Assembly (NCBI RefSeq): GCF_002221505.1 | Contig: NZ_CP011037.1 | Span: 124,001 to 188,000, forward strand | DNA from: Pseudoalteromonas nigrifaciens | GTDB lineage: Bacteria > Pseudomonadota > Gammaproteobacteria > Enterobacterales > Alteromonadaceae | DNA: 64,000 bases | Direction: 5' to 3' | Shown here: positions 29,845-44,975 of the stretch, piece after piece | Numbering within the stretch: the stretch's first letter is position 1 | Layout of the letters: each line of letters begins with the position of its first letter | Program-made: the position numbers and the translations under genes | The notes under the pieces: model-generated | Database searches by the model: none | Seen by the model: only the letters and a program-made list of their open reading frames with translations | Told to the model about the DNA's origin: nothing

Positions 29845-30438
29845 ATGAATAGATTACATCATAGTTCTGGACAGGCACCGTGGCGTCCTGCAATCGGCTT
29901 GGCTGTTAGTATGTTGGTGATTTGCGGCGGCTTTTATGCGGCGATTATAACTGGCCTTGGCGGTCTGTTATTTCCCACTCAAGCAACAGGCAGTTTAGTG
30001 ATGGTTGAAGGAAAAGCAATGGGATCGGCGTTAGTCTCCCAGCCATTTACGAGTACCGTGTATTTTCATGGCAGACCAAGCAGCGCTGATAATGACCCTA
30101 TGGCAACGGGGGGCAGTAATTTAGCGCCATCAAACCCTGAGTTACGCGATAGAGTAGCGCAGCAAAGCGCTGCACTGGCTTCGACTTATCAACTTGAGCC
30201 TGAACAGTTACCGGTCGATTTGCTGGCCAGCTCTGGTTCGGGCGTAGACCCTCACATTAGCCCAGCCGCTGCGGCGTTACAGGTGGAGCGTGTAGCGCAA
30301 GCTCGGGGGATCAGCACAGAGCAAGTATCGCAATTGGTTGCGCAATATAACGAGCCTGCACAATGGGGCATTTTTGGTCAGCCTCGGGTTAATGTGCTGC
30401 TATTAAATTTAGCACTTGATAACAATTACCCTCTATAA
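29845..30438 (+). CDS. kdpC: potassium-transporting ATPase subunit C
   Basis: 197 residues. One N-terminal transmembrane helix (about 16-38), then a periplasmic domain with VEGKAMGSALVSQPF near 54, YFHGRPSSAD near 73, LLASSGSGVDPHISPAAA near 126 and WGIFGQPRVNVLLLNLAL near the end, all KdpC signatures. It starts 3 nt after the kdpB stop, so translation is probably coupled. KdpC assists ATP binding and assembly of the pump. Confidence 0.96.
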   Translation: MNRLHHSSGQAPWRPAIGLAVSMLVICGGFYAAIITGLGGLLFPTQATGSLVMVEGKAMGSALVSQPFTSTVYFHGRPSSADNDPMATGGSNLAPSNPELRDRVAQQSAALASTYQLEPEQLPVDLLASSGSGVDPHISPAAAALQVERVAQARGISTEQVSQLVAQYNEPAQWGIFGQPRVNVLLLNLALDNNYPL

Positions 30439-30449
30439 ATTAATTAGTT

Positions 30450-30477
30450 AGTCGATTGTGATGCGGGACAATCGACT
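30450..30477 (+). other. hairpin between kdpC and the porin gene
   Basis: AGTCGATTGT (30450-30459) pairs perfectly with ACAATCGACT (30468-30477) around an 8-nt loop. No T run follows, so it is more likely a stabilising or processing hairpin than a terminator. It would separate the pump message from the porin/kdpDE message. Confidence 0.5.
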
Positions 30478-30535
30478 GCCGCTCTCGTCTTAGTACAGAA
30501 CGGTTTCTCTCCCGCTTTTTTATAGGAAAACAATA

Positions 30536-31024
30536 ATGCGTTTTATACTTTCTTTAGTAACGGCTACAACCGTAATGACCAGCGCTGGCGTCGTGGCGGC
30601 CCCTTTCAGTAGTGAAGGCTCTGTAACCTTAGCATCTAATTATTATTTTCGTGGTATTTCGCAAACTGAGCAGGGGCCTGCAATTCAAGGTAGCGTGAGT
30701 ATTAATCATCAGGATGGTTGGTACGCCAGTGCTTGGGGGTCAAATATTCGCTTTGGTGAAGGCAGTATGGAACTGGATTTATCACTGGGTCGTAATTGGG
30801 CTTTAGATGAAAACTGGGCTTTAGATATGGGGCTAGTACAGTATCGATATCCAGAAGGTGATAATGAGACTACAGGCTATAACTACATGGAAGGTTACGC
30901 TAAGTTAAACTATCAAGATTGGCAACTTGGTTTAGCACTAAGCGATAGTTATTTTGGTAACGATGTGGGCAAATTTTGGTATTTATCGCTTGATTGGCAA
31001 CAAACATTAACCAGTCACGGCTAG
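30536..31024 (+). pseudogene. N-terminal part of a TorF-type porin, cut by an ISAs1 element
   Basis: It starts MRFILSLVTATTVMTSAGVV with a signal peptide (to about VAA at 22), then EGSVTLASNYYFRGISQTEQ, DGWYASAWGSNIRFGEG and beta-barrel alternation, which is the TIGR02001/TorF putative-porin pattern. Real sequence ends at 31014; the next three codons to the TAG belong to the IS. Removing the IS and one target duplication joins it in frame to 32248-32488 and gives a 239-residue barrel ending in AAKSF. It lies between kdpC and kdpD, an unusual position in a kdp operon. Confidence 0.9.
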
Positions 31025-32239
31025 CGCATTTTAATCCCAGACTCTAGCAGGGTTGAGCGGTAATCATCGTCTAGCCCTGCCATTTTCTTTTTCCTCGCCA
31101 TACTTGCTGACTTAGATGCATCTTGTTTAAAAAGCGCCATGGCTATCTTTCGCATTACATTAAACATTAATGGCCCTTGAAGTTTGCGTATTCTCGATTC
31201 ATCTTCTCTGAAGTTCATATCAAGCATCCAATGCATGCTTTCAACCTGCCAGTGACTGCGTACCGCATTGAGTACTTGCGCTGCATTTAAGTCTAATGAA
31301 CTTATATACCAGCGTGTTTCAGTGGTATCCGACCCTGCCGACTTATCATGAACTTCAGCCCTGACCTTAATAATACTCGTTAAGCCAGGCCAACGATAAT
31401 CCTTGCCTAGCCAGCTTTTATCTATAAGTAACTGCTGGCATGTACGTGTTTCAACACGCCCATGTCCTGAGCTTATTTCGGTATGTTCATCACAATTATG
31501 CTTAGTTAACCTTTCACGCTCGCACTTGTGCCACCACGCTTCTAGTTCCTTTTGCATGCCTGAATGATTACCTTTAAGTGCAAGAATATAATCTGCTTTT
31601 TGTTGGATGATTTGTTTTGCTATTTCTTGTTGGCATCCCATCGCATCTAACGTAATGATACTGTTTTCAATATCGAGCAGGGTGAGTAATTCTGGTATTG
31701 CGGTGATTTCATTTGTTTTATTATCAACAGCCGTCTGCCCAAGCACTAACTGGTGTTGGCAACTCCATGCACTGACCGTGTGTAAGGCACTTTTTCTGTC
31801 TTTTGTGGTAAATGAACGCCGTGCGGTTTTGCCATCGATAGCGATGATATCTGCACCTGTAGTTTCAATCAGTGATGATATCCAAGATTGAAATGCCCTT
31901 TCTATTTCATTTGCTTTTAACCGACACATGACGCGAGCAATCGTGTCATGTTTTGGAATTCCTGCGTTGAACGTACCGTATTTTTTTAACCAATCAAGCT
32001 TTAGGTGCCCAAAGTCTTCAATATCTTCCCATCCTTCTGCACCAGAGAGTACAGCGCTAATAGCAAGGAGAAGAATATCGATAAGTTCATGCTTTTTACA
32101 ACGTTCAATGCGAGGATCTGTAATTGAATTAAAATGTTTCAGAAAAGTAGTGCTCATATTTATGCGACCAAGTAATTATTATGCCTTGATCTGATCACTA
32201 CTTGCTCTATAAGTTCAATTTATAATGATCTTGCCGTGA
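31015..32239 (-). mobile_element. ISAs1-family insertion sequence
   Basis: 1225 bp. The ends are TCACGGC at 31015 and GCCGTGA ending at 32239, and the element is flanked by a perfect 8-bp duplication, TTAACCAG (31007-31014 and 32240-32247). It holds one full-length transposase gene on the minus strand. Intact ends and intact gene suggest a recent insertion. Confidence 0.95.
31021..32157 (-). CDS. ISAs1-family transposase
   Basis: 378 residues. The N-terminal DDE_Tnp_1-associated region (HFNSITDPRIERCKKHELID, then LLLAISAVLSGAEGWEDIED) is followed by a DDE catalytic core: Asp in IIAIDGKTARRS, Asp in ITLDAMGCQQEIA, and Glu in NFREDESRIRK. These are standard for ISAs1 transposases. The gene fills nearly the entire element. 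Confidence 0.95.
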   Translation of the reverse strand: MSTTFLKHFNSITDPRIERCKKHELIDILLLAISAVLSGAEGWEDIEDFGHLKLDWLKKYGTFNAGIPKHDTIARVMCRLKANEIERAFQSWISSLIETTGADIIAIDGKTARRSFTTKDRKSALHTVSAWSCQHQLVLGQTAVDNKTNEITAIPELLTLLDIENSIITLDAMGCQQEIAKQIIQQKADYILALKGNHSGMQKELEAWWHKCERERLTKHNCDEHTEISSGHGRVETRTCQQLLIDKSWLGKDYRWPGLTSIIKVRAEVHDKSAGSDTTETRWYISSLDLNAAQVLNAVRSHWQVESMHWMLDMNFREDESRIRKLQGPLMFNVMRKIAMALFKQDASKSASMARKKKMAGLDDDYRSTLLESGIKMR

Positions 32240-32488
32240 TTAACCAGTGAGCTACAGCTAAATTGGCATTTAGGGTACAATCAATTCGATAATGATCAAG
32301 AGTTTAAAACTTTTTTAGGCTCGCCAGTGATGGATGGCTCAGGGTATACTGATTGGGGGCTGACGCTGTCGACTGAGCAACTAGGGCTAACTTGGTCAGT
32401 TGGCTATGTTGGCAATTCAATTGCCAGTGATGCCTGCGCTGATATATGCGATAACCGTTTGCTATTAAGTGCAGCAAAAAGTTTTTAA
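32240..32488 (+). pseudogene. C-terminal part of the TorF-type porin
   Basis: Begins with the second target duplication. Reading on from 32248 gives ELQLNWHLGYNQFDNDQEFK, then GYTDWGLTLSTEQLGLTWSV and CDNRLLLSAAKSF, stop. Alternating hydrophobic residues and a final Phe fit the last strands of an outer-membrane barrel. It joins in frame with the part at 30536-31014. The stop lies 21 bp before kdpD. Confidence 0.88.
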
Positions 32489-32509
32489 TTCCACTGAAAA
32501 GGAACTGTC

Positions 32510-35179
32510 GTGGCCGTTGATCCTCGTAACCAAAAAGCCGATGCGCTACTAAAAATCTTGCAACAACATCAAGGTGGGCAACTAAAAATTTTTATTGGTG
32601 CCGCCCCTGGCGTTGGAAAAACCTGTGCTATGCTTAATGCGGCCAGAGAATATATGCAACAAGGCGCGTCGGTAAAAATAGGTTTGATTGAAACCCACGG
32701 CAGAGCCGAGACGCAACGTTTACTCGAGGGCTTTGATATTTTACCTCGACGTGAAATTAGTTATCACGATCAACAACTGAGTGAATTTGATCTAGATGCC
32801 GCATTGGCAGCCAAACCGCAACTGATTTTGGTCGATGAACTCGCTCATACCAATATTCCCGGTAGTCGCCATAAAAGGCGCTATCAAGATATCGCCGAAT
32901 TGCTGGAAGCGGGCATTGATGTGTATACCACGATGAATGTGCAGCATATTGCCAGCCTCAACGATTTGGTATTACAGATCAGTGGTGTTAGGGTTAAAGA
33001 AACCGTACCTGATCAGTTTATTGACCGCGCTCAGCAACTGGTGTTCGTCGATTTAGCTCCTAATCATTTATTGGACCGCCTAGCCCAAGGGCAAGTGTAT
33101 CTTGGCGACTATGCCGAACAAGCGATACAGCAATTTTTTCAATTAGAAACGTTAACCGCACTGCGTGAAATGGCGATGAAGCGGGTGATCGGGCATGTTG
33201 ACGATCAACTAAAAAATGAACAAGAAGCCAAAGCGCGCAGTAACGATTATTTAATTCAAGATAAGGTGTTGGTGTTGATCTCGAATCGCCGTGATCATGA
33301 ACACCTTATTCGTATTGGCCGACAAATGGCAGAAAAACGCCACACACCTTGGATTGTGGTGTGGGTGGACACTGGAAAAATACATAACCAGCTTGAGCAA
33401 AAACGATTGCAATCGGCTTTTGCATTGGCAAAAGAGCTGGGAGCAGAAACCGATACATTACGTGGTCCCTCCAGCATACAAACTATTTTACCCTATATTA
33501 GTGAACATAGGATCAATACCGTGTTAGTGGGCGCGGGCACTAAGCGGCGCTTGCAACCATGGCGTAAACCTTTATATCAACAATTAATCAATAGCGGTTT
33601 ACCGATAGAAGTGTCGGTTTGGCAAGCCAGTAAACGCCAGCACAAGTACGTAACAGAAGCCGCTCCGTCACTGGCATTTGGCCAAAAAATGGGCTATTTG
33701 TTTGGTTCACTTTTGGTTGCTGTAGCCAGCGCGGTTGCACTTGCATTATCAAGTTGGTTGCAAAGTGGTAACTTAGTACTGGTGTATGTATTAGCTGTGG
33801 TATTTTGTGGCTTAAAATACGGCGCGCGGCCTGCGATTTTTACCGCTTTATTGTCATTTCTAAGTTTTAACTTTTTTCTTACCGATCCGTATTACACCTT
33901 TTTCGTTAATAAAAATGATGATATTGCCACCTTACTGTTTTTATTTGTGATTGGTGTTGTGTGTGGGCCTGCGGCATCGCGTATTCGTCAACAGTTCTTA
34001 TTATTAAAAGAGGCGAATCGTTATACTGAGCTGCAACGTGATTTTGCTCAGCAATTAACGGTGATCAATCAAGCCGATGAATTGTGCCTAACCTTGGCTG
34101 GGCAGTTACAGCAAGCACTGGACTGCCCAGCTCATGTGGTGGTTTTTGAGCATCATCAGCAACAGATCAGCCCTCGTTTAGGGCAGCCTTTACAGTCACT
34201 TGATCAAGCTATGGTTGATTGGTGTTATGCCCACAATCAAATGGCTGGTCGTTTTAGCGATACCTTAAATGCCAGTGATTGGACGGCATTTCCAATACAA
34301 GCTGATAATAAATCGATTGCAGTACTATTGCTAAAGTTTGCCAAAGAGCAGCAGGTGTTCACAGAGCAAGATAACAATTTGATCCGTACCTTTGTACAGC
34401 AAATGGTTAATGTGTGGCAACGTATTCATCTTAATAATGAGCTTGAAGCATCGACTCGCAAAGCGGAAATGGAACAGCTTCGTTCGGCATTATTAGCCTC
34501 AGTATCCCATGATTTACGTTCACCTTTGTCTGCCATGATGGGCTCGGCAGAAAGCTTAAAAGTACTCGATAAACAGCTATCAGCGCAAGACAGAGTGGAT
34601 TTACTTGAAACCATCATACATGAAAGCCGACGTCTTGATCGTTACATTGAAAACTTGCTCGATATGACCCGCTTAGGTCATGGTACCTTAAAATTAGAGC
34701 GCGATTGGGTGCCTGTGGCTGATATTATTGGCAGTGCTAAACTGCGCTTAAAATATTTATTTCCTGATATTGAAGTGGACTATCAAGAGCAAAAAAACTT
34801 GCCTTTGCTGTATGCTCATGCGGCTTTGTTAGAGCAAGGCATTTTTAATATTTTGGAAAACGCAGCAAAATACAGCCCAATTGATGAGCCGGTGATCATT
34901 ACTGCGAATCAGGATGGCCGACTGTGTCGCATTGAAATCGAAGATCATGGCCCTGGTATTGCTGAAGAATTACAAGAAAAAGTATTTGATATGTTTTACG
35001 TGGTCGCCGATGGTGATAGTAAACGGCACAATACCGGTATGGGCTTAGCCATTTGCCGTGGTATGATTGCGGCTCATGGCGGTAAGGTTAAGGCTGATAC
35101 AGCCCGCTCTGGCAGTGGTTCGCGTTTTATTATTGAACTGCCCTTACCCGATCCCCAAGACATCCCAGTAAGAGGTTAA
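32510..35179 (+). CDS. kdpD: sensor histidine kinase KdpD
   Basis: 889 residues from a GTG start with AAGGA 6 nt upstream. Order of domains: KdpD N-terminal domain with Walker A GAAPGVGKT (30-38) and LVDELAHTNIPGSRHKRRYQ; a universal-stress-protein-like domain (about 250-370); four transmembrane helices (about 395-500); a GAF-like segment; HisKA with the phospho-acceptor His667 (SVSHDLRSPLS); and a HATPase domain (NILENAAKYSP, DHGPGI, GMGLAICRG). It senses low K+ and ionic stress and phosphorylates KdpE. Confidence 0.97.
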   Translation: MAVDPRNQKADALLKILQQHQGGQLKIFIGAAPGVGKTCAMLNAAREYMQQGASVKIGLIETHGRAETQRLLEGFDILPRREISYHDQQLSEFDLDAALAAKPQLILVDELAHTNIPGSRHKRRYQDIAELLEAGIDVYTTMNVQHIASLNDLVLQISGVRVKETVPDQFIDRAQQLVFVDLAPNHLLDRLAQGQVYLGDYAEQAIQQFFQLETLTALREMAMKRVIGHVDDQLKNEQEAKARSNDYLIQDKVLVLISNRRDHEHLIRIGRQMAEKRHTPWIVVWVDTGKIHNQLEQKRLQSAFALAKELGAETDTLRGPSSIQTILPYISEHRINTVLVGAGTKRRLQPWRKPLYQQLINSGLPIEVSVWQASKRQHKYVTEAAPSLAFGQKMGYLFGSLLVAVASAVALALSSWLQSGNLVLVYVLAVVFCGLKYGARPAIFTALLSFLSFNFFLTDPYYTFFVNKNDDIATLLFLFVIGVVCGPAASRIRQQFLLLKEANRYTELQRDFAQQLTVINQADELCLTLAGQLQQALDCPAHVVVFEHHQQQISPRLGQPLQSLDQAMVDWCYAHNQMAGRFSDTLNASDWTAFPIQADNKSIAVLLLKFAKEQQVFTEQDNNLIRTFVQQMVNVWQRIHLNNELEASTRKAEMEQLRSALLASVSHDLRSPLSAMMGSAESLKVLDKQLSAQDRVDLLETIIHESRRLDRYIENLLDMTRLGHGTLKLERDWVPVADIIGSAKLRLKYLFPDIEVDYQEQKNLPLLYAHAALLEQGIFNILENAAKYSPIDEPVIITANQDGRLCRIEIEDHGPGIAEELQEKVFDMFYVVADGDSKRHNTGMGLAICRGMIAAHGGKVKADTARSGSGSRFIIELPLPDPQDIPVRG

Positions 35180-35184
35180 CCTGC

Positions 35185-35862
35185 GTGTCGGCACATATTT
35201 TAGTTGTAGATGACGAATTTCAGATCCGTAAAATGTTGCGAATTGCACTGAAAAGTGTCGGTTATGAGGTCTGTGAAGCTGAATCAGTGAGTACTGGGTT
35301 GGCAGCAGCTGTTCGCCAACAACCAGATTTAGTTATTTTGGATTTAGGCTTGCCAGATGGCGATGGCTTAGCGCTATTAGCCGAAATTCGCAGTTTTTCG
35401 AGTGTGCCGGTGATTGTGTTATCAGTGCGCAGTGCAGATCTCGATAAAATCAAAGCCCTTGATATTGGCGCGCAAGATTATGTTACTAAACCGTTTAGCG
35501 TGGAAGAGTTATTAGCTCGGGTGAGAGCCCAGCTGCGAGACCGATTTCCAGATAAAACCGCCTCTGTACTTGATGATGGTCATTTAAAAATTGATTTAGC
35601 GCGGCGTTTAGTGACCTGTAACGGCAAATTAGTAGAACTGACTCCAAAAGAATATGCGGTGCTTGCCAAGCTTGCTCAACATCGACAATGTGTTATTACC
35701 CAAAAACAGCTGTTAGAACATATTTGGGGGCCAAGTCATGCACAAAATACCCATTATTTACGTATTGTGGTCAGTCATATTCGCCATAAAATAGGCGATG
35801 ATCCAACCACGCCACGTTATTTGATCACCGAAGCGGGTATCGGCTATCGCTTAATGTTGTAA
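35185..35862 (+). CDS. kdpE: response regulator KdpE
   Basis: 225 residues from a GTG start, 5 bp after kdpD. A receiver domain with acidic pair DDE (9-11), phospho-acceptor Asp53 (ILDLGLPDGDG) and Lys in VTKPFS, then an OmpR-type winged helix (ELTPKEYAVLAKLAQHR, GIGYRLML). It activates kdpFABC. An alternative partner system of the same type lies at 45.1-47.1 kb. Confidence 0.95.
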   Translation: MSAHILVVDDEFQIRKMLRIALKSVGYEVCEAESVSTGLAAAVRQQPDLVILDLGLPDGDGLALLAEIRSFSSVPVIVLSVRSADLDKIKALDIGAQDYVTKPFSVEELLARVRAQLRDRFPDKTASVLDDGHLKIDLARRLVTCNGKLVELTPKEYAVLAKLAQHRQCVITQKQLLEHIWGPSHAQNTHYLRIVVSHIRHKIGDDPTTPRYLITEAGIGYRLML

Positions 35863-35970
35863 AGTTGTGTGTTCTATAGCAAGTCAAAGATGAGCCAACA
35901 TACTGCGTGCAGATTCAATACTTATTACTAAGTTGTAAATAAGTATAAATGATTATACCATATATCTCTA

Positions 35971-36075
35971 ACCTTAGGGGAGTAGTCTCTCAGCTCTACT
36001 GAGATAATCGTCAACAGTCCCCGAACAGCAGTTCGTGGCGGTTATGTCCAAATTGGATTGACAAGACTTAAGGCA
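35971..36075 (+). promoter_or_regulatory. manganese (yybP-ykoY) riboswitch aptamer
   Basis: The 5' end has CCTTAGGGGAGTAG (35972-35985) and the 3' end GACAAGACTTAAGG (36060-36073); CCTTA and TAAGG form the basal stem. GGGGAGTAG and AAGACTT-type ends are the conserved core of the yybP-ykoY class, which binds Mn2+ between two docked loops. Inner elements fit: CTCAG/CTGAG hairpin (from 35990), the conserved TCGTCAA, GAAC/GTTC and TCCA/TGGA hairpins, and GTCAA/TTGAC closing. It precedes an operon of uppP, a cation exchanger, mscS, apbE and corA. Recognised from pattern, not from a covariance search. Confidence 0.8.
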
Positions 36076-36130
36076 AGTGTCGCTCTCGGGGTGGAGGGTT
36101 TCGCTTGTCTTTGTTCTTGCCGCCCCAAGG
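36072..36130 (+). promoter_or_regulatory. expression platform of the riboswitch
   Basis: Three mutually exclusive pairings are possible. GGCAAG (36072-36077) pairs with CTTGCC (36116-36121). GGGGTGG (36088-36094) pairs with CCGCCCC (36120-36126). CCCCAAGG (36123-36130), which contains the ribosome binding site of the leader frame, can pair with the aptamer's own CCTTAGGGG (35972-35980) with one bulged A. The aptamer 5' strand would thus either form its basal stem or hide the ribosome binding site, which suggests translation turned on by metal. Mechanism inferred. Confidence 0.5.
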
Positions 36131-36138
36131 AACTGTTC

Positions 36139-36201
36139 ATGAAGATATTCAAAAGCCAATGCGTACGCCCTAATACAGGGGATATGCATGGATTCTATTA
36201 A
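36139..36201 (+). CDS. 20-codon leader peptide frame overlapping the uppP start
   Basis: The frame reads MKIFKSQCVRPNTGDMHGFY then TAA. AAGGA (36127-36131) lies 7 nt before its ATG, a better ribosome binding site than that of uppP. Its last codons overlap the uppP start (36188) in another frame by 14 nt, so ribosomes finishing it would stop next to the uppP ATG. It begins just after the riboswitch expression platform. Unrecognised; may act only through its translation. Could be chance. Confidence 0.45.
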   Translation: MKIFKSQCVRPNTGDMHGFY

Positions 36202-36988
36202 TGCTATTTTACTTGGCATCGTTCAAGGTATTACAGAATTTTTACCGATTTCTAGTTCTGCTCATTTGATTTTGGCACCCTTGTTCGCTGGATGGCAAGA
36301 CCAAGGCGTAGCATTTGATCTTGCAGTACATGTTGGAACGTTGTTTGCTGTACTGCTTTATTTTAGAAAAGATGTTAAAGAATTAACCCGAGATGGATTG
36401 TTGTCGTTACAACATCGTCAATGTGTTGGACAGGGAAAACTCGCGTTTTTTATAATGGTTGCAACCATTCCCGCTGTATTAGCTGGGTTATTGTTGATGG
36501 ATCTTATCGATAATCAACTGCGCTCAGTAGCTATTATTTTTGCCACTACATTGTTCTTTGGTCTTTTATTGGGATGGGCTGATTGGAAACCCAATAAACA
36601 GCGTCAGTTAGACGATTTGAAATTCAAAGATGTGCTTTTTATCGGCGTCGCGCAAGCGGTTGCGCTCATTCCTGGCACATCACGCTCTGGGGCTACCATT
36701 ACCATGGCTTTATTGCTGGGACTAAGCAGAGAAGCCTCGTCTCGCTTCTCCTTTTTGTTAGCAATACCCATAACTGCGCTCGCCTCTGCCGCAAAACTGA
36801 TAGATGTCGCTCAGTCAAACGCAAGTGTTGACTGGCTGGCTTTCCTTATTGGGGGCATTACATCATTTTTGATGGCATTAACAGCAATTCACTTTTTCTT
36901 AAAATGGTTAAATCAGTTCGGTATGTGGCCCTATGTCATATATCGCATCCTCTTAGCTGGCCTAATTTACTTTTTCTTTTTAACGTAA
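36188..36988 (+). CDS. uppP: undecaprenyl-diphosphate phosphatase (UppP/BacA)
   Basis: 266 residues with eight or so membrane segments. Signatures: GIVQGITEFLPISSSAHLIL (residues 11-30) and LIPGTSRSGATITMALLLGL near 159-178, the two re-entrant active-site loops. It recycles the lipid carrier undecaprenyl pyrophosphate for peptidoglycan and other envelope polymers, and the family is divalent-cation dependent. It is the first large gene after the Mn riboswitch and the leader frame, with AGGGG before its ATG. uppP under such a switch is unusual. The next gene follows after 9 bp. Confidence 0.95.
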   Translation: MDSINAILLGIVQGITEFLPISSSAHLILAPLFAGWQDQGVAFDLAVHVGTLFAVLLYFRKDVKELTRDGLLSLQHRQCVGQGKLAFFIMVATIPAVLAGLLLMDLIDNQLRSVAIIFATTLFFGLLLGWADWKPNKQRQLDDLKFKDVLFIGVAQAVALIPGTSRSGATITMALLLGLSREASSRFSFLLAIPITALASAAKLIDVAQSNASVDWLAFLIGGITSFLMALTAIHFFLKWLNQFGMWPYVIYRILLAGLIYFFFLT

Positions 36989-36997
36989 GGTAACACT

Positions 36998-37966
36998 ATG
37001 ACACTCGCGATTTTAGCCATTTTAGGTGGCTTTATTTTATTGGTTTGGAGCGCTGACCGCTTTGTTGATGGTGCGGCCGCGACTGCAAAATATGCTGGCA
37101 TGCCGTCACTGCTAATTGGAATGGTCATTGTTGGTTTCGGTACGTCTGCGCCTGAAATGGTGGTCTCTGCCATGGCGGCCATTGATGGCAATCCTGATTT
37201 GGCCCTTGGTAATGCGCTGGGTTCAAATATTGTTAATACCGGATTGATACTGGGTATTACCGCCATTATTACGCCAATTTTAGTGCAGTCAAAAATAGTC
37301 AGAAAAGAAATCCCATTATTATTACTGATAAGTTTAGCGCTGGGTTATTTTCTTTGGGATGGCGCGTTAACTCGTGTTGAATCAATCCTTCTTTTGGTAG
37401 GTTTTTTTACCTTAATTGGCTGGAGCATATACTCTGCCATGAAAGGCAAAGGAGACATATTAGAAGGCGAAATGGACCAAGAACTGGCAGAACACGCCAT
37501 GCCGATAAAAAAGGCGGTTTTTTGGCTAGTACTTGGGCTGGTATTACTGATAGTGAGTTCGCGAGTACTTGTCTGGGGAGCGGTTAGTATTGCAGAAGCA
37601 CTGGGTGTGAGTGATTTAATTATCGGTTTAACAATTGTCGCATTGGGCACCTCGCTACCTGAATTAGCCGCATCCATCATTGCGGTTAGAAAAGGTGAGC
37701 ATGACATCGCTATTGGCAATGTGGTGGGGTCGAACATGTTTAACTTACTGGCAGTAACCGGTATTGCCGGAGTCATATCACCCATGACTAATTTGTCTTC
37801 TGATGTGCTATCTCGCGACTGGTTGGTTATGATGGGCTTGACACTCGCGTTACTATTCATGGCGTATGGCTTTCGTGGCGCTGGACGGATTAACCGATTT
37901 GAAGGTGCGGGCTTGTTGGTCGCATTTTGTGCTTACAATGTCTGGTTAGTTTCGTCTGTTATTTGA
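36998..37966 (+). CDS. calcium/sodium antiporter (CaCA family, YrbG/CaxA-like)
   Basis: 322 residues, ten hydrophobic segments in two inverted halves. Alpha-repeat motifs are GFGTSAPEMVVS and LALGNALGSNIVNTGLILG in the first half, and ALGTSLPELAASIIA and AIGNVVGSNMFNLLAVTG in the second. The family exchanges Na+ (sometimes K+ or H+) for Ca2+; some members may move other divalent ions. Its place behind a Mn riboswitch suggests that it could export Mn2+ or Ca2+. AAGGT precedes the ATG. 9 bp after uppP. Confidence 0.93.
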   Translation: MTLAILAILGGFILLVWSADRFVDGAAATAKYAGMPSLLIGMVIVGFGTSAPEMVVSAMAAIDGNPDLALGNALGSNIVNTGLILGITAIITPILVQSKIVRKEIPLLLLISLALGYFLWDGALTRVESILLLVGFFTLIGWSIYSAMKGKGDILEGEMDQELAEHAMPIKKAVFWLVLGLVLLIVSSRVLVWGAVSIAEALGVSDLIIGLTIVALGTSLPELAASIIAVRKGEHDIAIGNVVGSNMFNLLAVTGIAGVISPMTNLSSDVLSRDWLVMMGLTLALLFMAYGFRGAGRINRFEGAGLLVAFCAYNVWLVSSVI

Positions 37967-38036
37967 TAACGACATTTAAAAATTAAGAAATTTGCATTTG
38001 AATTCGCTTCAAATGCATATAAAGAAAGAGATATAT

Positions 38037-38888
38037 ATGAAAGATTCACTTATTCAATTTTGGCAAAGTCATTCTGAGACAATAATAGCACTCGGTTATA
38101 ATTTAATTTTAGCGATTGTTATTTTGGTGGCTAGCTCATTGATAGCAAGAGCAGTACGTAAGGCGATTAAAAATACCAACTCTAAGCTGAATAAAATTGA
38201 CGCGACCCTGATACCGATCTTTTCAGCGGTTGCCAGTTATGCGGTATATGTCATTGGTGGTGTATTTATTTTAGATATCTTTGGCGTAAATACCGCGAGT
38301 CTTATCGCTCTGGTTGGTGCCGCAGGCCTAGCAGTTGGTCTTGCGCTTAAAGATACACTCAGCAACATCGCTGCTGGGATCATGCTATTGATATTACGAC
38401 CTTTTAAAACTGGGGATTTTATCGAGTTTGGCTCAACCCAAGGGACAGTAAAAGAAATCAGTTTATTCACTACAGTGCTTGAAACCATAGATGGATTGTA
38501 CATTGCCTCGCCGAATAGCGTCTTGTGGGGTAATAACATCAAAAACTTCACGCGCAATGGTAAGCGACGAATGGATATTGTTGTGGGTATTTCCTATTCA
38601 GACTCGATAGATGACGGGTTTAAAATATTGCAGGCTGTAGCAGCAAATGAATCAAGATTGATGACTGAACCAGCGCCTCAAGTCATGGTTGCATCCATGG
38701 CCGATAGCGCAGTAAATATTCAGCTTAGAGCATGGGCAACAAATGAAAACTATTGGTCTGCTTATTGGGATTTGAATAAACAAGTAAAAGAAGCCGTTGA
38801 AGCGGCTGGTCTAACGATCCCTTTTCCACAACGCACACTGCACGTTGTGTCTGAGCAACGTTTATCTACTGTAAAGGATAAGTCATGA
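38037..38888 (+). CDS. mscS: small-conductance mechanosensitive channel MscS
   Basis: 283 residues from MKDSLIQFWQSHSETIIALG; the frame extends 15 codons upstream without a ribosome binding site, whereas AAAGAG precedes this ATG. Three transmembrane helices; TM3 has the Gly/Ala-rich pore helix GAAGLAVGLALKDTLSNIAA, then GIMLLILRPFKTGDFIEFG starts the beta domain. E. coli MscS has 286 residues. It opens on hypo-osmotic shock and releases ions. Its last 4 nt overlap apbE (ATGA). Confidence 0.94.
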   Translation: MKDSLIQFWQSHSETIIALGYNLILAIVILVASSLIARAVRKAIKNTNSKLNKIDATLIPIFSAVASYAVYVIGGVFILDIFGVNTASLIALVGAAGLAVGLALKDTLSNIAAGIMLLILRPFKTGDFIEFGSTQGTVKEISLFTTVLETIDGLYIASPNSVLWGNNIKNFTRNGKRRMDIVVGISYSDSIDDGFKILQAVAANESRLMTEPAPQVMVASMADSAVNIQLRAWATNENYWSAYWDLNKQVKEAVEAAGLTIPFPQRTLHVVSEQRLSTVKDKS

Positions 38889-39907
38889 AGCGATTAACTT
38901 TGGTGGTGTTAATCAGCTTAATGCTTGGCTTGGTGGCGTGCTCTAAGCCTGTTGAGGTAAAAATGTTAAGTGGCGCTGCACAAGGCACCACTTGGCATGT
39001 TTCAGTGTGGAGCAACTCCGCAATTGATACCGAAAGATTACAGGAAGAGATAGAAGCTGAGTTCCTGCGAATTGATAAAATGATGTCGAATTACCATTCA
39101 GACTCAGTCATTGAGCAGTTTAATCGCAGTGAAAACCCTCAAGCTATTGAAGTTGGGGAAGAAATTGTCAGCTTGGTTAACATTGCTCGACAAGTGAGTC
39201 AGGCAACCAATGGCTGCTATGACTTGACCGTTAAGCCGCTCTTTGATTTGTGGGGGTTTAGCAAAGATGTATTTAATGCCCCCTCTGAAACAGACATCCA
39301 AAATGCCATAAAAAAAATTGGCCTAAGTTATCTTACTTCACCAACACAAACCAGCCTGTTAAAAAAACAGCCAGAATTAAGTGTTGATCTATCCTCGATA
39401 GCACAAGGTTATAGTGTGTCGCGTATTGCAAAGGTAGTTGAGAGCGCTGGAATAACCGATTACCTAGTTGAAATAGGTGGTGAGATGCAAACTCGCGGGC
39501 ACAAACCAGATGACTCGTTCTGGCGCATTGCGATAGAACGCCCCTTACCTGGCGATAGGGTTGTTCAAAAAGTGATTGATATTAAGCAGGATGATTCAAT
39601 TGCTATTATGACGTCAGGCACTTACCGACACTACTTCGATGAACAAGGCAAGCGCTTTAGTCATGTTTTGGATGCACGAACAGGCAAACCGGTTACTCAC
39701 TCTACCTTATCTGTTACTGTACTTCATGACGACCCCACGCAAGCAGATGCGTGGTCAACAGCCCTACTGTGTCTCGGTGAAAGTGACGCTATACGAGTCG
39801 CTAACGAACATGGCGTTGCCGCTTTTATTGTGAGGGAAGAGAAGGGTTCGCTAATCGAGAGCAGCAGTAATGCGTGGAATACGATGAAAAATATAGGGGT
39901 AAACTGA
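38885..39907 (+). CDS. apbE: FAD:protein FMN transferase (intact ApbE)
   Basis: 340 residues. A lipoprotein signal with lipobox LVAC (Cys19), then SGAAQGTTWHVSVWS, MMSNYHSDSVIEQFN, GCYDLTVKPLFDLWGF, SIAQGYSVSRIAKV, LVEIGGEMQTRG, MTSGTYRHYFDEQG and FSHVLDARTG, the standard ApbE order. It is Mg2+-dependent and attaches FMN to Thr/Ser of exported flavoproteins. No FMN-acceptor gene (NqrC/RnfG type) is in the window. A broken paralogue lies at 24.2-25.8 kb. Coupled to mscS (4-nt overlap) and corA (1-nt overlap, TGATG). Confidence 0.95.
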   Translation: MKRLTLVVLISLMLGLVACSKPVEVKMLSGAAQGTTWHVSVWSNSAIDTERLQEEIEAEFLRIDKMMSNYHSDSVIEQFNRSENPQAIEVGEEIVSLVNIARQVSQATNGCYDLTVKPLFDLWGFSKDVFNAPSETDIQNAIKKIGLSYLTSPTQTSLLKKQPELSVDLSSIAQGYSVSRIAKVVESAGITDYLVEIGGEMQTRGHKPDDSFWRIAIERPLPGDRVVQKVIDIKQDDSIAIMTSGTYRHYFDEQGKRFSHVLDARTGKPVTHSTLSVTVLHDDPTQADAWSTALLCLGESDAIRVANEHGVAAFIVREEKGSLIESSSNAWNTMKNIGVN

Positions 39908-40863
39908 TGTTAAGACTATTCTCAATTCATCAGAATGTTATTCAGGAAATTGAACATGATGCTGAAAATCTATCTAGTGTCATAAATGGCGCGCAATGGA
40001 TTGATGTTCATGAGCCTAATGAATTTGATCGTTCGTTATTGATGGAGCTATTGCATACAGAGCTTCCTGAATCCAACGATATTGAAGAGATTGAAGCATC
40101 AGCACGCTGTTTTGTTGATAAATCCGGTATTCATATCCATTCGTTGTTTATGACGCAGTCTGAGGGACGTCATCAGACGGTAAGTGTTGCGTGTATTTTA
40201 CAGAAAGAACGATTGATCACGATCCGCGATGGCGATATTGCAGACTTTCGTTTGCTGAGAATGCGAGCGCGTCGTGGGCAAGTGGAGTCCCGTTCGCCGC
40301 AAGACTTGCTAGTGACATTATTGGAACAAAAAGTTGAGAATCACGCTGACTCGCTGGAAGACTTACATCGAGAGTTAGAGGCCGTAAGCTATTTAGTATT
40401 GGAAGATGAGACATCCGAACTGGAAGACGCAATAGGAAAGCTGGCTAGACTGGAAGACACAAATGGTAAAATCCGTCTGTGTTTAATGGATACACAACGA
40501 GATATCTCATTTTTACTCAGGCACTTGACTGTTCAATCGTCAGAACAGGAAACGCTTAGAGAAATCATGCGGGATATTGAGACCTTGATGTCACATACCA
40601 CCTTTTTATTCGATAAAATCAATTTTTTGATGGATTCAACACAAGGTTTTATCAATATAGAACAAAATAAAATTATAAAGATTTTTTCTATTGCAGCCGT
40701 CGTGTTTTTGCCTCCAACGCTTATCGCTAGTATGTATGGGATGAATTTTGAATTTATGCCAGAGCTTAAGTGGGCATTCGGTTATCCATGGGCTATTGGG
40801 TTAATGATTGCTGCGGGTTTTTCACCTTACTTGTATTTTAAACGCAAGGGGTGGCTTAAATAA
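39907..40863 (+). CDS. corA: magnesium/cobalt transporter CorA
   Basis: 318 residues from MLRLFSIHQNVIQEIEHDAE (E. coli 316). The frame could begin 11 codons earlier inside apbE, but the ATG overlapping the apbE stop fits coupling. A long acidic and helical cytoplasmic domain is followed by two C-terminal membrane helices, with the selectivity signature YGMNF (MYGMNFEFMPE) between them. It mediates Mg2+ (Co2+, Ni2+) entry. Last gene of the riboswitch operon. It would supply divalent cation, whereas the exchanger upstream probably removes one. Confidence 0.94.
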   Translation: MLRLFSIHQNVIQEIEHDAENLSSVINGAQWIDVHEPNEFDRSLLMELLHTELPESNDIEEIEASARCFVDKSGIHIHSLFMTQSEGRHQTVSVACILQKERLITIRDGDIADFRLLRMRARRGQVESRSPQDLLVTLLEQKVENHADSLEDLHRELEAVSYLVLEDETSELEDAIGKLARLEDTNGKIRLCLMDTQRDISFLLRHLTVQSSEQETLREIMRDIETLMSHTTFLFDKINFLMDSTQGFINIEQNKIIKIFSIAAVVFLPPTLIASMYGMNFEFMPELKWAFGYPWAIGLMIAAGFSPYLYFKRKGWLK

Positions 40864-41384: not shown

Positions 41385-42749
41385 TTAACCAATAGAGAGT
41401 TGCGCGCTTGGGTACCTTAGTTTTTTACTACGTGGACTTGCTAAAAAATAGGCGATTGTTAGCGGACCTATTCTGCCCATAAACATTAAAAACATAATGA
41501 TAAATTCACCTATTGGTGACAGCGAACCTGTTAAACCTCGAGATAAGCCAACAGTGCCTATTGCTGATACCGCTTCGAATGCAATATCAATAAAAGGTGC
41601 ATCTTCGACTAACAATAAAACGAAAATAGCAAGCCAGGTAACTCCTGCAGAAATAATAGTTAAAGCTAATGCTTTATACACAGATTCTTTGTCTATTTCT
41701 CGGCGTAACACAGTGATCCCTTTATCACGTCTGAGGTAGCTATAGGTTGCTAATATTAAAACAATAAACGTAACGACCTTTATGCCACTTGCGGTACTCA
41801 AAGAGCCGCCACCAATAAACATAAGCATCATAGTTAAAGCGGTGCTGGCATTTTTTAATTCTTCAATAGCAATGGTATTGAATCCCGCAGTACGGGGAGT
41901 GACAGCTTGAAACCAAGCAGCTAACCATTTACCTACTTCAGACAGTGGTTGCAGTGTTTTTGGATTATCGTATTCAATCGCGTAAATAAGCAATAATGCA
42001 ATAACGTTAATAATAACTGTGCTGATCAACATTAATTTACTGTAAGTACATAGTTTTGCCCAACGTTTCGATTTATATAAGTCCATTAATACGGTAAAGC
42101 CTAAACCACCAATTATAAACAAACCAGTTATAGTAAGGTTAATCACAGGGTCGGCCACATATGCCATTAAACTGTTTGGGCTCAATGCAAAGCCAGCATT
42201 ATTAAAAGCACTAATAGTATAAAATACTGCATGCGCAAATGCTTTTAGCCAGCCCATTTCTTGGCCCCAATATAAGGTTAAAATGGTAATACCAAGGCTT
42301 TCTACTAGCAGTGAAAATAATAAAACTGACTTAGCAGTGCTGACCAAAGTAGAAGTATCGGTTTGATTATAAGCCGCTTTAGTAATAGTTTTTTGCATAA
42401 ATCCGACTTTGTTACCAAGTGCTATCAGTGTGACCACAGCAAACGTCATCAGTCCTAAACCACCGAGTTGAATCAATAGTGCAATAACACCTTGCCCAAA
42501 GGCGGTAAACGCAGAGCCGGTATCCACAACAACCAACCCGGTTACAGTAACAGCAGACGTTGCCGTGAATAAACTTTGTTCCCAAGAAATAGGAATATGT
42601 GCAGCAAAAGGGAGTTTAAGTAATATTGCACCCAGCAATATTAAAAAAATAAAACCAGTGCTTAATATAACCGGAGGTGCGGCGTTTAATTTTTTATTTC
42701 CTCTTGGCTTTCGCTCAATTGGAGTTTGTAGGGGATGCCACTGAACCAT
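41385..42749 (-). CDS. TrkH/KtrB-family potassium channel subunit (KtrB-like)
   Basis: 454 residues with eight TM segments and four pore loops: TATSAVTVTGLVVVD near 62, ISAFNNAGFALSP near 176, TPRTAGFNTI near 285 and VSAIGTVGLSRGL near 395. Each filter has a conserved Gly. Sequence and length are nearer KtrB than E. coli TrkH. The basic N-terminal tail (ERKPRGNKKLN) is unusual. It forms a K+ uptake channel (Na+-dependent in Ktr systems) gated by a TrkA/KtrA ring. Last gene of the operon, 3 bp after trkA. Confidence 0.9.
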   Translation of the reverse strand: MVQWHPLQTPIERKPRGNKKLNAAPPVILSTGFIFLILLGAILLKLPFAAHIPISWEQSLFTATSAVTVTGLVVVDTGSAFTAFGQGVIALLIQLGGLGLMTFAVVTLIALGNKVGFMQKTITKAAYNQTDTSTLVSTAKSVLLFSLLVESLGITILTLYWGQEMGWLKAFAHAVFYTISAFNNAGFALSPNSLMAYVADPVINLTITGLFIIGGLGFTVLMDLYKSKRWAKLCTYSKLMLISTVIINVIALLLIYAIEYDNPKTLQPLSEVGKWLAAWFQAVTPRTAGFNTIAIEELKNASTALTMMLMFIGGGSLSTASGIKVVTFIVLILATYSYLRRDKGITVLRREIDKESVYKALALTIISAGVTWLAIFVLLLVEDAPFIDIAFEAVSAIGTVGLSRGLTGSLSPIGEFIIMFLMFMGRIGPLTIAYFLASPRSKKLRYPSAQLSIG

Positions 42750-42752
42750 AGT

Positions 42753-43406
42753 TTATACCAGCCTTGGTGCAATATGTTTTAATTCAGCTCTATTACCTGT
42801 TAATAGTAAGCTATCACGTTCATTCAGGCTAAAGTGGTGTTCAAGTTTTACAAATGTTTGTTTGCCACGTTTTACCAGTAACGGCTCTATTTCGCCTTTA
42901 AGATCTTTTAATAGTTGGCCAATCGTTACACCGTGTAAATTAGGTTTTATATGAACTTCAACAACATACAATCCATTCCCTAAGGCTATATAATCGTTCA
43001 CCATCGGGTAATTAAGCGCTTGTGCTACGCGTACGCCCATTTCTTCTTCTGGATGAATAATCCGTGTAACACCCAGTTTAGAAATAATAGTATGGTGGGC
43101 TTTAGTGCTCGCTTTTACCCATATTTGCTCAACCGCTAGGTTCTTTAATGCAAGCGTACACAGAATGCTCGATTGCATGTCTTCACCAATGGCCACTAAA
43201 ACGGCTTGGCTATTGGCTAAATCAAGCTCTTTAAGTGCGGCTTCATCGGTGGAGTCGCATACTACGGTTTCAGATAAATGCTCGACATATTTCTCAGCGA
43301 GCTTAGGGTTGCTATCAACCCCTGTGACTGTATGCCCTAAATGAATTAACTCAAGACTTGCAGCGATACCAAATCGTCCGAGTCCAATAACAGTAAAGTG
43401 AGCCAT
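42753..43406 (-). CDS. TrkA/KtrA-type regulatory subunit (RCK domain)
   Basis: 217 residues. TrkA-N Rossmann fold with GLGRFGIAASLELIHLGH (8-25) and acidic residue VDSNP, then a TrkA-C domain (VEVHIKPNLHGVTIGQLLKD from about 150). One RCK unit, as in KtrA; E. coli TrkA has two. It binds NAD(H)/ATP and gates the partner channel. It lies between two different channel genes, 12 bp after the upstream trkH stop and 3 bp before the KtrB-like gene. Confidence 0.93.
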   Translation of the reverse strand: MAHFTVIGLGRFGIAASLELIHLGHTVTGVDSNPKLAEKYVEHLSETVVCDSTDEAALKELDLANSQAVLVAIGEDMQSSILCTLALKNLAVEQIWVKASTKAHHTIISKLGVTRIIHPEEEMGVRVAQALNYPMVNDYIALGNGLYVVEVHIKPNLHGVTIGQLLKDLKGEIEPLLVKRGKQTFVKLEHHFSLNERDSLLLTGNRAELKHIAPRLV

Positions 43407-43418
43407 AATTTTCCTTTA

Positions 43419-44873
43419 TTATTTTTGCCAAAAAGCACGTGTAAATAATGCAAATACGGTAAAGTATTCTAATCGTCCTACGATCATAGCGATAGAGAGA
43501 ATAAGTGTCCCTGTGTCTGTAACAGGTTGAAAATTTGAACCAACTTCACCAAATCCAGGGCCCAGCACATTTACACAGGCAGCTACCGCTGTAAATGCAC
43601 TCCAAAAATCAAGACCTGTAGCCATTAATAATAAAGTAAAAAGTAGGCTTGAACCTGCAGCAAAAGTCATAAATGCCATAATGGCATGGCGAATATCTTC
43701 TGTTACAGAAATACCTTGGTATTTAATGGTAAAAATAGCTCGCGGGTGTATAGTTTGTTTAATATTTAGATTAATTATTTTGGCAACAATAATATTACGT
43801 ATAATTTTATTTCCTCCTGCTGTTGAACCTGCGCACCCGCCTAAATAACCTACAAAAACAAGCAAAAATCCCGCTACAGGAGGCCAGTCGGTGTAGCCTG
43901 CGGCACCAAATCCTGTACTGGTAATAAAAGAGATTATATGAAACATAGAAAAGCTAAATGCCTCTAATGTATTTGTATAGGTATCTTTTAATAACAGCAA
44001 TGAAGTTAAAAGAGCTGTTAATACCATGATTATGTAAATGAAGTATCGGGTTTCTTCATCGTCATAGTAACCACGTATACTTCTTTTATGTGCAACACGA
44101 AAATGCAAACCAAAGTTTACAGCCCCAGCGATCATAAATAAATTTGAGATCCATAGTAATAAATGACTTTGGTAGTACCACATACTGGCATCATGCGTTG
44201 AAAACCCCCCAGTTGAAACTGTGGTAAAAGCATGCGCTATCGCATCATAAAAGCTCATGCCACCTACATAATAAGCTAAGGTACAGAGTAGAGTAATTGT
44301 TAAGTAAACACCCCATAAATAATGAGCGGTACTGGCAACTCGAGGAGTTAATTTTTCGTCTTTAATGGGGCCTGGGGTTTCTGCTTTTAGTAGTTTCATA
44401 CCGCCTACATTCAGCATAGGTAAAATGGCGACAACAAAAATCACAATTCCGAGTCCACCCATCCATTGTAAAAATTGTCGATAAAGTAAAAAGGTAGGGG
44501 GCATACCATCAAGATCTGAAAGTATTGTAGCGCCCGTTGTGGTTAGCCCACTTATGGATTCAAAAATACCGTCAACAATGCTTACATCAGTGACTAAAAT
44601 AATCGGTATTGCACCTAATATGCCAATTACAGCCCATGTGATGGTTGCATAAATAAGGGCATCTCTGAAATTAGCTTTTGCTAAGTTGGCCTTACGTAAA
44701 TTTATTAATAAAAGTAAGGCAATAAAAAATAGGCTAGCACCGGGGGCTATAAAACTAGTAACTACACGATCTTTGAAAACAAATAGCGAAAGCGCAGCAA
44801 AAATTAATTGCACACTCGCCATCCAAATTATAGGAAAGGCGAGTAGCCTTAACGTCACTCTCCAATTTATCAT
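43419..44873 (-). CDS. trkH: TrkH-family potassium uptake protein
   Basis: 484 residues from MINWRVTLRLLAFPIIWMAS, with AAGGCG 8 nt upstream; a further 15 codons are open but unsupported. E. coli TrkH has 483. Filter loops: SGLTTTGATILSDLD near 103, TTVSTGGFSTHDASMW near 217, ITSTGFGAAGYTDWP near 325, and CVNVLGPGFGEVGSNF near 435. Also LRQFLQWMGGLGI-like (YRQFLQWMGGLGIVIFVVAI). It imports K+ with H+. First gene of a trkH-trkA-ktrB-like operon. Confidence 0.93.
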   Translation of the reverse strand: MINWRVTLRLLAFPIIWMASVQLIFAALSLFVFKDRVVTSFIAPGASLFFIALLLLINLRKANLAKANFRDALIYATITWAVIGILGAIPIILVTDVSIVDGIFESISGLTTTGATILSDLDGMPPTFLLYRQFLQWMGGLGIVIFVVAILPMLNVGGMKLLKAETPGPIKDEKLTPRVASTAHYLWGVYLTITLLCTLAYYVGGMSFYDAIAHAFTTVSTGGFSTHDASMWYYQSHLLLWISNLFMIAGAVNFGLHFRVAHKRSIRGYYDDEETRYFIYIIMVLTALLTSLLLLKDTYTNTLEAFSFSMFHIISFITSTGFGAAGYTDWPPVAGFLLVFVGYLGGCAGSTAGGNKIIRNIIVAKIINLNIKQTIHPRAIFTIKYQGISVTEDIRHAIMAFMTFAAGSSLLFTLLLMATGLDFWSAFTAVAACVNVLGPGFGEVGSNFQPVTDTGTLILSIAMIVGRLEYFTVFALFTRAFWQK

Positions 44874-44975
44874 TACAGCGCCTTTTAAATATGAAAACGT
44901 GACATACACACAACACAAATTAAGTAAGTTAGAATATGACTAAATGCAATGGAAAAGTCAGCGCTGGGTATGAAG

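Follow-up and report, generated by a model that had tools for sequence, protein, structure and literature searches.

Predicted manganese riboswitches of the yybP-ykoY family are examined here at a locus that raises an unusual question: why should such a switch stand in front of uppP, a gene for undecaprenyl-diphosphate phosphatase? The locus lies in a 64,000-nucleotide stretch of DNA from Pseudoalteromonas nigrifaciens, which we call the window. The original prediction placed a whole operon (uppP, a cation exchanger, MscS, ApbE and CorA) under this switch. The explanation that we favor, and to which we assign a probability of about 0.7, is that a Mn2+-responsive translational ON riboswitch controls a short leader ORF and, through it, a coupled operon of the CaCA exchanger type in which an extra uppP is included.

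The aptamer and the genes behind it

At the Rfam gathering thresholds, no match was found in the whole 64-kb window. With Infernal at E ≤ 10, region 35860-36200 matched RF00080 alone among 4227 Rfam families (35975-36129, plus strand; model positions 11-177; 40.9 bits, E 7e-10), and a different class of ion switch was dropped as a candidate because no other family matched there. The yybP-ykoY core that had been recognized by eye was therefore recovered by the covariance search, though under the gathering score of 45. The same genome carries a switch in front of a GDT1/UPF0016 gene (Pfam PF01169) that scores even lower, at 36.6 bits, so that a score below the cut-off is weak evidence against the aptamer in the window. 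The aptamer is predicted at 35972-36073 (+) from this match and from an alignment of 16 loci with the same switch sub-type, described below. Its P1 helix is formed by CCUUA (35972-35976) and UAAGG (36069-36073), and its L1 core, GGGGAGUAG, occupies 35977-35985. The predicted Mn-contacting adenosine of L3 is A36016, the equivalent of A48 in the X. oryzae aptamer, which contacts Mn2+ via N7 in solved structures (excerpts of PMC6754395). Both the GGGGAG core of L1 and the invariable L3 adenosine are kept. The aptamer folds with a z-score of -4.13, and one of 200 dinucleotide shuffles folded equally well.

The predicted gene order was confirmed by Pfam (BacA/UppP, Na_Ca_ex, MscS, ApbE, CorA) and NCBIfam, with uppP, the exchanger gene and corA passing NCBIfam cut-offs, and mscS and apbE passing only those of Pfam. 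The uppP gene (36188-36988, +) scored 265.5 bits against Pfam BacA, 360.3 bits against NF001393 (cut-off 284) and 234.8 bits against TIGR00753 (cut-off 217.5); its product matched PDB 5oon with an E-value of 1.4e-40, and 6cb2 is another solved relative. Judged by family score, the product is a predicted UppP/BacA equivalog, and it differs from the known enzymes in that its gene is an extra copy behind a predicted metal switch. The CaCA cation exchanger gene (36998-37966, +) scored 238.8 bits against TIGR00367 (cut-off 179.65), and its product is homologous to NCX_Mj (E 1.3e-34); the difference from known CaCA exchangers is again the predicted Mn2+ switch in front. The genes that follow on the same strand are an mscS-type channel gene (38037-38888, for which ATG 38037 was preferred over TTG 37992), apbE (38885-39907) and corA (39907-40863), whose ATG at 39907 overlaps the apbE stop. 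Nine nucleotides separate uppP from the exchanger gene and 70 separate the latter from the mscS ATG, with overlaps after that. Two observations weigh against the explanation that we favor: we detected no sigma-70-like promoter on the plus strand from 35800 to 36426, and one lies inside uppP at 36427. Promoter-like sites numbered 16, near the shuffle mean of 13.1, and terminator-like sites numbered 9 compared with 4.8 (sd 2.3) in shuffles.

The usual target of the switch sub-type

A survey with RF00080 (E ≤ 0.01, strict filters) matched 36 of 108 genomes of the genus, and R1, a model of the window's sub-type built from seven loci, gave matches in 44 of the 395 genomes of the family at E ≤ 0.01. 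From both searches we picked and examined 52 loci. The first gene belonged to UPF0016 in 36 of them and to CaCA in 14, and it was uppP or a uppP-like frame in two, namely the window and locus L158. The sub-type itself is represented by 16 loci from 14 genomes and 6 genera, and a CaCA exchanger gene comes first in 14 of these. Where the sequence was long enough (13 exchanger loci, G1133 being left out), an mscS gene follows the exchanger gene in 11, the exceptions being G870 and G1141; the CaCA-mscS order also occurs in P. donghaensis HJ51. Judged by gene position, we conclude that a CaCA exchanger is the ordinary target of the switch sub-type. These 14 loci, together with a closely related locus that lacks uppP and, over the 10 kb covered, corA (L085 of genome G006, below), speak against a switch made for uppP. 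The analysis thus supports the original prediction as to a Mn2+ aptamer by sequence, uppP as the first large gene and the other genes close behind it, and does not support the notion of a switch specially built for a uppP operon.

A search for the sub-type beyond the family, over 369 genomes of the class, matched one, the window's own (E ≤ 1e-9, strict filters; a sample without genome G025). A supporting case comes from G025, which belongs to another family: there a distant CaCA gene also stands behind an RF00080 match over the cut-off. That gene is 38% identical to the window's, and the RF00080 match scores 54.3 bits. The locus appears in our set as both L009 and L087 and scores 50 bits with R1. 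Within the genome of the window, we observed a second sub-type switch at C2:23441 (locus L186, G000:C2:22000-32000; R1 116.8 bits), which precedes a CaCA-mscS pair. L186 was absent from the RF00080 list and was found by R1, so counts based on RF00080 alone may be too low. In some genomes of the genus, a switch precedes an MntP-family gene (L007, L049, L052 and L095, the last assigned by Pfam).

The leader ORF and two predicted folds

The original prediction missed a 20-codon leader ORF that lies between the switch and uppP (36139-36201, +). Its ATG is located 7 nt after a Shine-Dalgarno sequence, and its end overlaps the uppP start by 14 nt. Every sub-type locus whose first gene is intact (15 of 15) has a leader ORF. 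The leaders begin with ATG or GTG 4-7 nt past the end of the switch model and stop 1-19 nt inside the first gene, and their lengths range from 20 to 80 codons overall and from 30 to 80 at exchanger loci. All 14 sub-type exchanger loci share a single frame offset, and the offset in the window differs. In shuffles with the frame offset taken as given, the overlap arose by chance at frequencies of 0.02-0.38 per locus, for loci that are related. The product of the per-locus frequencies was about 2e-9 for 11 loci, after reduction of near-identical pairs to one and again with the offset given, a value that makes the case look stronger than it is, given the kinship of the loci. At L158, the start of the remnant continues into the uppP-like frame, leaving no separate leader. 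Purine-rich stretches also precede the starts of the first genes themselves, and both re-initiation and direct initiation are therefore possible.

Switches before UPF0016/GDT1 (MneA) genes belong to the same family, are common in these genomes and include the one in the window's genome; in a published screen, 328 of 333 strains that carry a UPF0016 gene were reported to have a yybP-ykoY switch (excerpts of PMC7380456). They differ from the switch in the window in the target family and in that the first gene follows closely, with no comparable leader. A scan for overlapping frames gave no comparable leader ORF in any of the 36 UPF0016 loci; 32 had no overlapping frame at all, and in four an 8-10 codon frame begins ahead of the Shine-Dalgarno and overlaps the gene start by 1 nt. 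The ATG of the UPF0016 gene itself lies 2-8 nt past the model end in 29 of the 36 and 16-45 nt past it in the remaining 7. At the distant CaCA locus of G025 (L009), a comparable leader is likewise missing, and the gene starts 7 nt past the end of the R1 model. We also considered that leader ORFs might be eroded uppP genes. This was rejected for 13 of 15 intergenic stretches, which scored like shuffles; the nearest to an exception among them was L157, whose score was equalled or exceeded by 25 of 300 shuffles. The two stretches that outscored all 300 shuffles in likeness to uppP were L158 and L164.

By complementarity and folding, the predicted switching strand is CCUUAGGG (35972-35979, +), which comprises the 5' strand of P1 and L1. 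It is complementary to two partners: the P1 strand UAAGG, giving the ON fold, or the platform CCC(C/U)AAGG, giving the OFF fold. In the OFF fold, a predicted anti-P1 hairpin, AAGGCAAGUG...CGCUUGUCUU (36070-36111, +), would sequester the 3' strand of P1. This hairpin was predicted in 15 of 16 loci, L161 being the exception, when the downstream arm was folded by itself; the support comes from single folds, as the MAFFT columns are misaligned there and covariation is not countable. In the ON fold, the platform arm GGGGUGG (36088-36094, +) can pair with CCGCCCC (36120-36126), the 3' arm that runs into the leader Shine-Dalgarno, AAGGA (36127-36131, +). The sequence CCC(U/C)AAGG is present in 13 of 16 loci and deviates in L162, L163 and L186.

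Free folding gave the OFF state as its minimum in 15 of 16 loci, the Shine-Dalgarno being mostly paired; in the same-genome paralogue, L186, the Shine-Dalgarno was open in the minimum-energy fold. The anti-Shine-Dalgarno helix is nearly invariant: four of its seven pairs never vary, and at column pair 8/174 a single change from A-U to G-C is seen, the two bases being unpaired in 4 of the 15 distinct rows. Taken alone, this helix showed covariation no higher than shuffles (170 of 500 as high). For the platform helix, 91.1% of cells were paired across the 16 loci, with two pairs changed on both sides and the window's own pairs in a register one column off. When P1 and platform were scored together, 90.3% of cells were paired in the 16 loci and five cells had changed on both sides. 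None of 500 shuffles was as high in paired cells or in covariation score, and 105 of 500 had at least as many pairs with changes on both sides. Partners slid by two or three columns gave covariation scores of 0.145 and 0.115, higher than the 0.099 of the unshifted register. Constrained ON folds of seven sequences lay 6-16 kcal/mol above OFF without ligand. The Shine-Dalgarno was fully free in none of the seven, and in the constrained ON fold of the window all four Shine-Dalgarno bases fell inside a small local hairpin. This may have arisen because the sequences ended just past the Shine-Dalgarno. On these fold models, we regard the OFF state as well supported and the ON state as less so.

The complementarity, the leader ORFs and the gene order suggest how the switch might work, and we infer from them its direction and the coupling. 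Without Mn2+, CCUUAGGG would pair with the platform around the Shine-Dalgarno (CCGCCCCAAGGA) while a separate hairpin would occupy the 3' strand of P1, and translation would be blocked. Binding of Mn2+ would close the aptamer and allow P1 to form, so that the Shine-Dalgarno could load ribosomes. These would read the short leader, which stops just within the first gene, and that gene would be translated by coupling or re-initiation. As the extra uppP lies between the leader and the exchanger gene, it would come under the same control, and mscS, apbE and corA would follow behind these two. The switches of E. coli mntP and alx are of the same aptamer family; Mn2+ turns their expression on, more strongly at alkaline pH (excerpts of PMC9603457), and the control of mntP is stated to be translational (abstract of PMC11647493). 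In published descriptions these switches act directly on the exporter gene, whereas in the window a leader ORF intervenes.

Origin and possible role of the extra uppP

The type of uppP found in the window occurs in one of 108 genomes of the genus (E ≤ 1e-74), and an intact uppP in one of the 16 sub-type loci, which is the window. Each of 24 same-genus relatives has a uppP copy 43-50% identical to the window's, and two have a second, more distant one. The window's genome (three contigs, among them 3.5 Mb and 0.68 Mb) has two other uppP genes, at C1:2735280 and C2:354755, and these further copies are 49% and 35% identical to the window's. Locus L085 of G006 is 95.2% identical to the window up to 36141 and 92.6% identical over 37012-39825; between these matching flanks it has 166 nt and no uppP. 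It keeps apbE (87% identity), and no corA was found in the 10 kb covered. Among the best 120 of 1366 uppP proteins, the nearest were 85% and 75% identical, followed by others at 66-73% (Marinobacter, Thalassospira and others), with homologues at 69-70% in a methane-oxidizing endosymbiont and a Methylococcaceae MAG. The G+C content of uppP, 0.414, compared with 0.418 for the window, gave no sign of a foreign base composition. A plasmid source was considered and set aside, as all 27 plasmid records matched at E ≤ 1e-40 were below 60% identity. R1 was searched over 20 loci (18 uppP loci plus L009 and L087) and matched only L009 and L087. One uppP that is 66% identical to the window's has an identical DNA sequence in two genera (L152, G809:C5:6000-18000, and L153, G852:C5:1-4399); in L153 it is placed between two identical same-sense DDE transposase genes, as in a composite transposon.

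Remnants of uppP were found behind the switch in two other genera. In G1104, the frame after the switch begins like uppP and ends as the end of CaCA, as expected from an internal deletion. Two of 31 genomes of that genus matched R1 at E ≤ 1e-15, the other match being a 70-bit UPF0016 switch. In G870, the last part of uppP, with its stop, lies directly before the CaCA gene. The remnants scored 186 and 86, respectively, compared with best values of 56 and 53 in 300 shuffles. Among 84 sequences compared, the G1104 remnant was closest to the window's uppP, and the G870 remnant scored about equally with the whole clade. From the intact copy and the two remnants, we conclude that the order switch-uppP-CaCA existed in three genera; uppP may have been gained several times, or the whole operon may have moved. 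The proposed survey of uppP genes downstream of such aptamers yielded the window and the degenerate cases L158 and G870, and no other intact case among the 16 sub-type loci.

Related gene groups also occur without the switch. An operon of uppP, apbE and corA is found in L070, L071 and G248, and uppP adjoins a CaCA gene in G478 (L140); no RF00080 match was detected in L070-L074 at E ≤ 0.1. In a small sample of 12 uppP contexts taken from 46 class-level rows, homologues of the window's operon genes were present in two, L138 and L140. Judging by gene order, the window operon looks like a CaCA-mscS pair nested in a uppP-apbE-corA cassette. In another class, a Hyphomonas MAG has corA, mntP (Pfam Mntp), CaCA and uppP in a row (L074, NZ_NCJT01000034.1, 2368-5810), which places uppP beside a gene for Mn export.

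What uppP does under the switch can be explained in two ways. It might serve a function in an operon for Mn2+ stress, selected for lipid-carrier recycling linked to Mn2+, to which the exchanger, CorA and ApbE also belong. The place of uppP between switch and exchanger gene in three genera would fit, as would the switchless uppP-apbE-corA operons and the copies beside CaCA or beside corA-mntP-CaCA. BacA is, moreover, a metal-dependent enzyme (excerpts of PMC4641660). Still, two of the three occurrences behind the switch have decayed, leaving the window as the sole intact case among the 16 loci, and partner genes appear in only the two contexts above; we consider selection for this role unlikely, and the proposed tie of Mn2+ to lipid-carrier recycling or flavinylation is at the level of the possible. 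That same decay, and the presence of this uppP in a single genus genome, would be expected of a mobile passenger which entered a permissive site behind the leader ORF and has no Mn2+-related role. The 66% identical relative shared between G809 and G852 at the DNA level, next to DDE transposase genes and with no R1 match, points the same way. A passenger accounts less easily for an intact frame with a good family score, for a G+C content like that of the window, or for the same place in three genera, which exceeds random expectation unless the whole operon moved. We take the passenger explanation seriously while holding it at somewhat under even odds. Within the leader-ORF explanation that we prefer, the overlap of leader and first gene would make the site a landing pad, so that any gene that inserts behind the leader, as uppP would have done here, would at once be metal-controlled. 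On this basis we tentatively suggest that the Mn2+ switch sub-type acts through a small, sequence-variable leader ORF that hands ribosomes on, and that insertion behind it gave lineages of one family a Mn2+-induced extra lipid-carrier phosphatase; we would bet slightly against this whole chain of events.

In the explanation that we favor, the exchanger is probably an exporter of Mn2+ (or of Ca2+ that Mn2+ has disturbed), a role read from the place of its gene, and the extra UppP may plausibly offset activity that is lost when Mn2+ competes for the metal site of the enzyme. E. coli BacA performs best with Ca2+; Mg2+ restores it fully and Mn2+ only in part (excerpts of PMC4641660). A variant aptamer could instead sense another ligand, such as Ca2+, which would match the exchanger. 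The L3 loop reads AACAGUC, in place of AACAUAC, in 12 of the 16 sub-type loci (AACAUAC and AACAAUC occur in two each), and the associated genes belong to a Ca2+/Na+ antiporter family. We find another ligand highly improbable, as L1, the adenosine that contacts Mn2+ and the C after it are all kept, L161 and L162 have the consensus AACAUAC before the same gene, and in L. lactis, too, the loop is different beyond the adenosine (excerpts of PMC6754395).

The literature searched, with most subscription papers outside it, contained no link of uppP or undecaprenyl to a yybP-ykoY switch, no manganese riboswitch with a leader peptide and no yybP-ykoY switch in Pseudoalteromonas. In Vibrio, mneA and terC lie behind a yybP-ykoY switch, and no CaCA or uppP gene is named in excerpts of PMC13274385. 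If our explanation is true, CaCA exchangers would join the targets of Mn2+ riboswitches, as would, in a single intact example, the recycling of the cell-wall lipid carrier. The riboswitch family would also gain an indirect architecture, from switch to leader ORF to coupled gene. In addition, one control site is seen to have held the same gene in three genera, with decay in two. The operon itself lies amid K+ transport genes: kdpC, a DDE transposase gene (31021-32157), kdpD and kdpE flank it on one side (29845-35862 of the window), and TrkH/TrkA-like K+ uptake genes flank it on the other (41385-44918).
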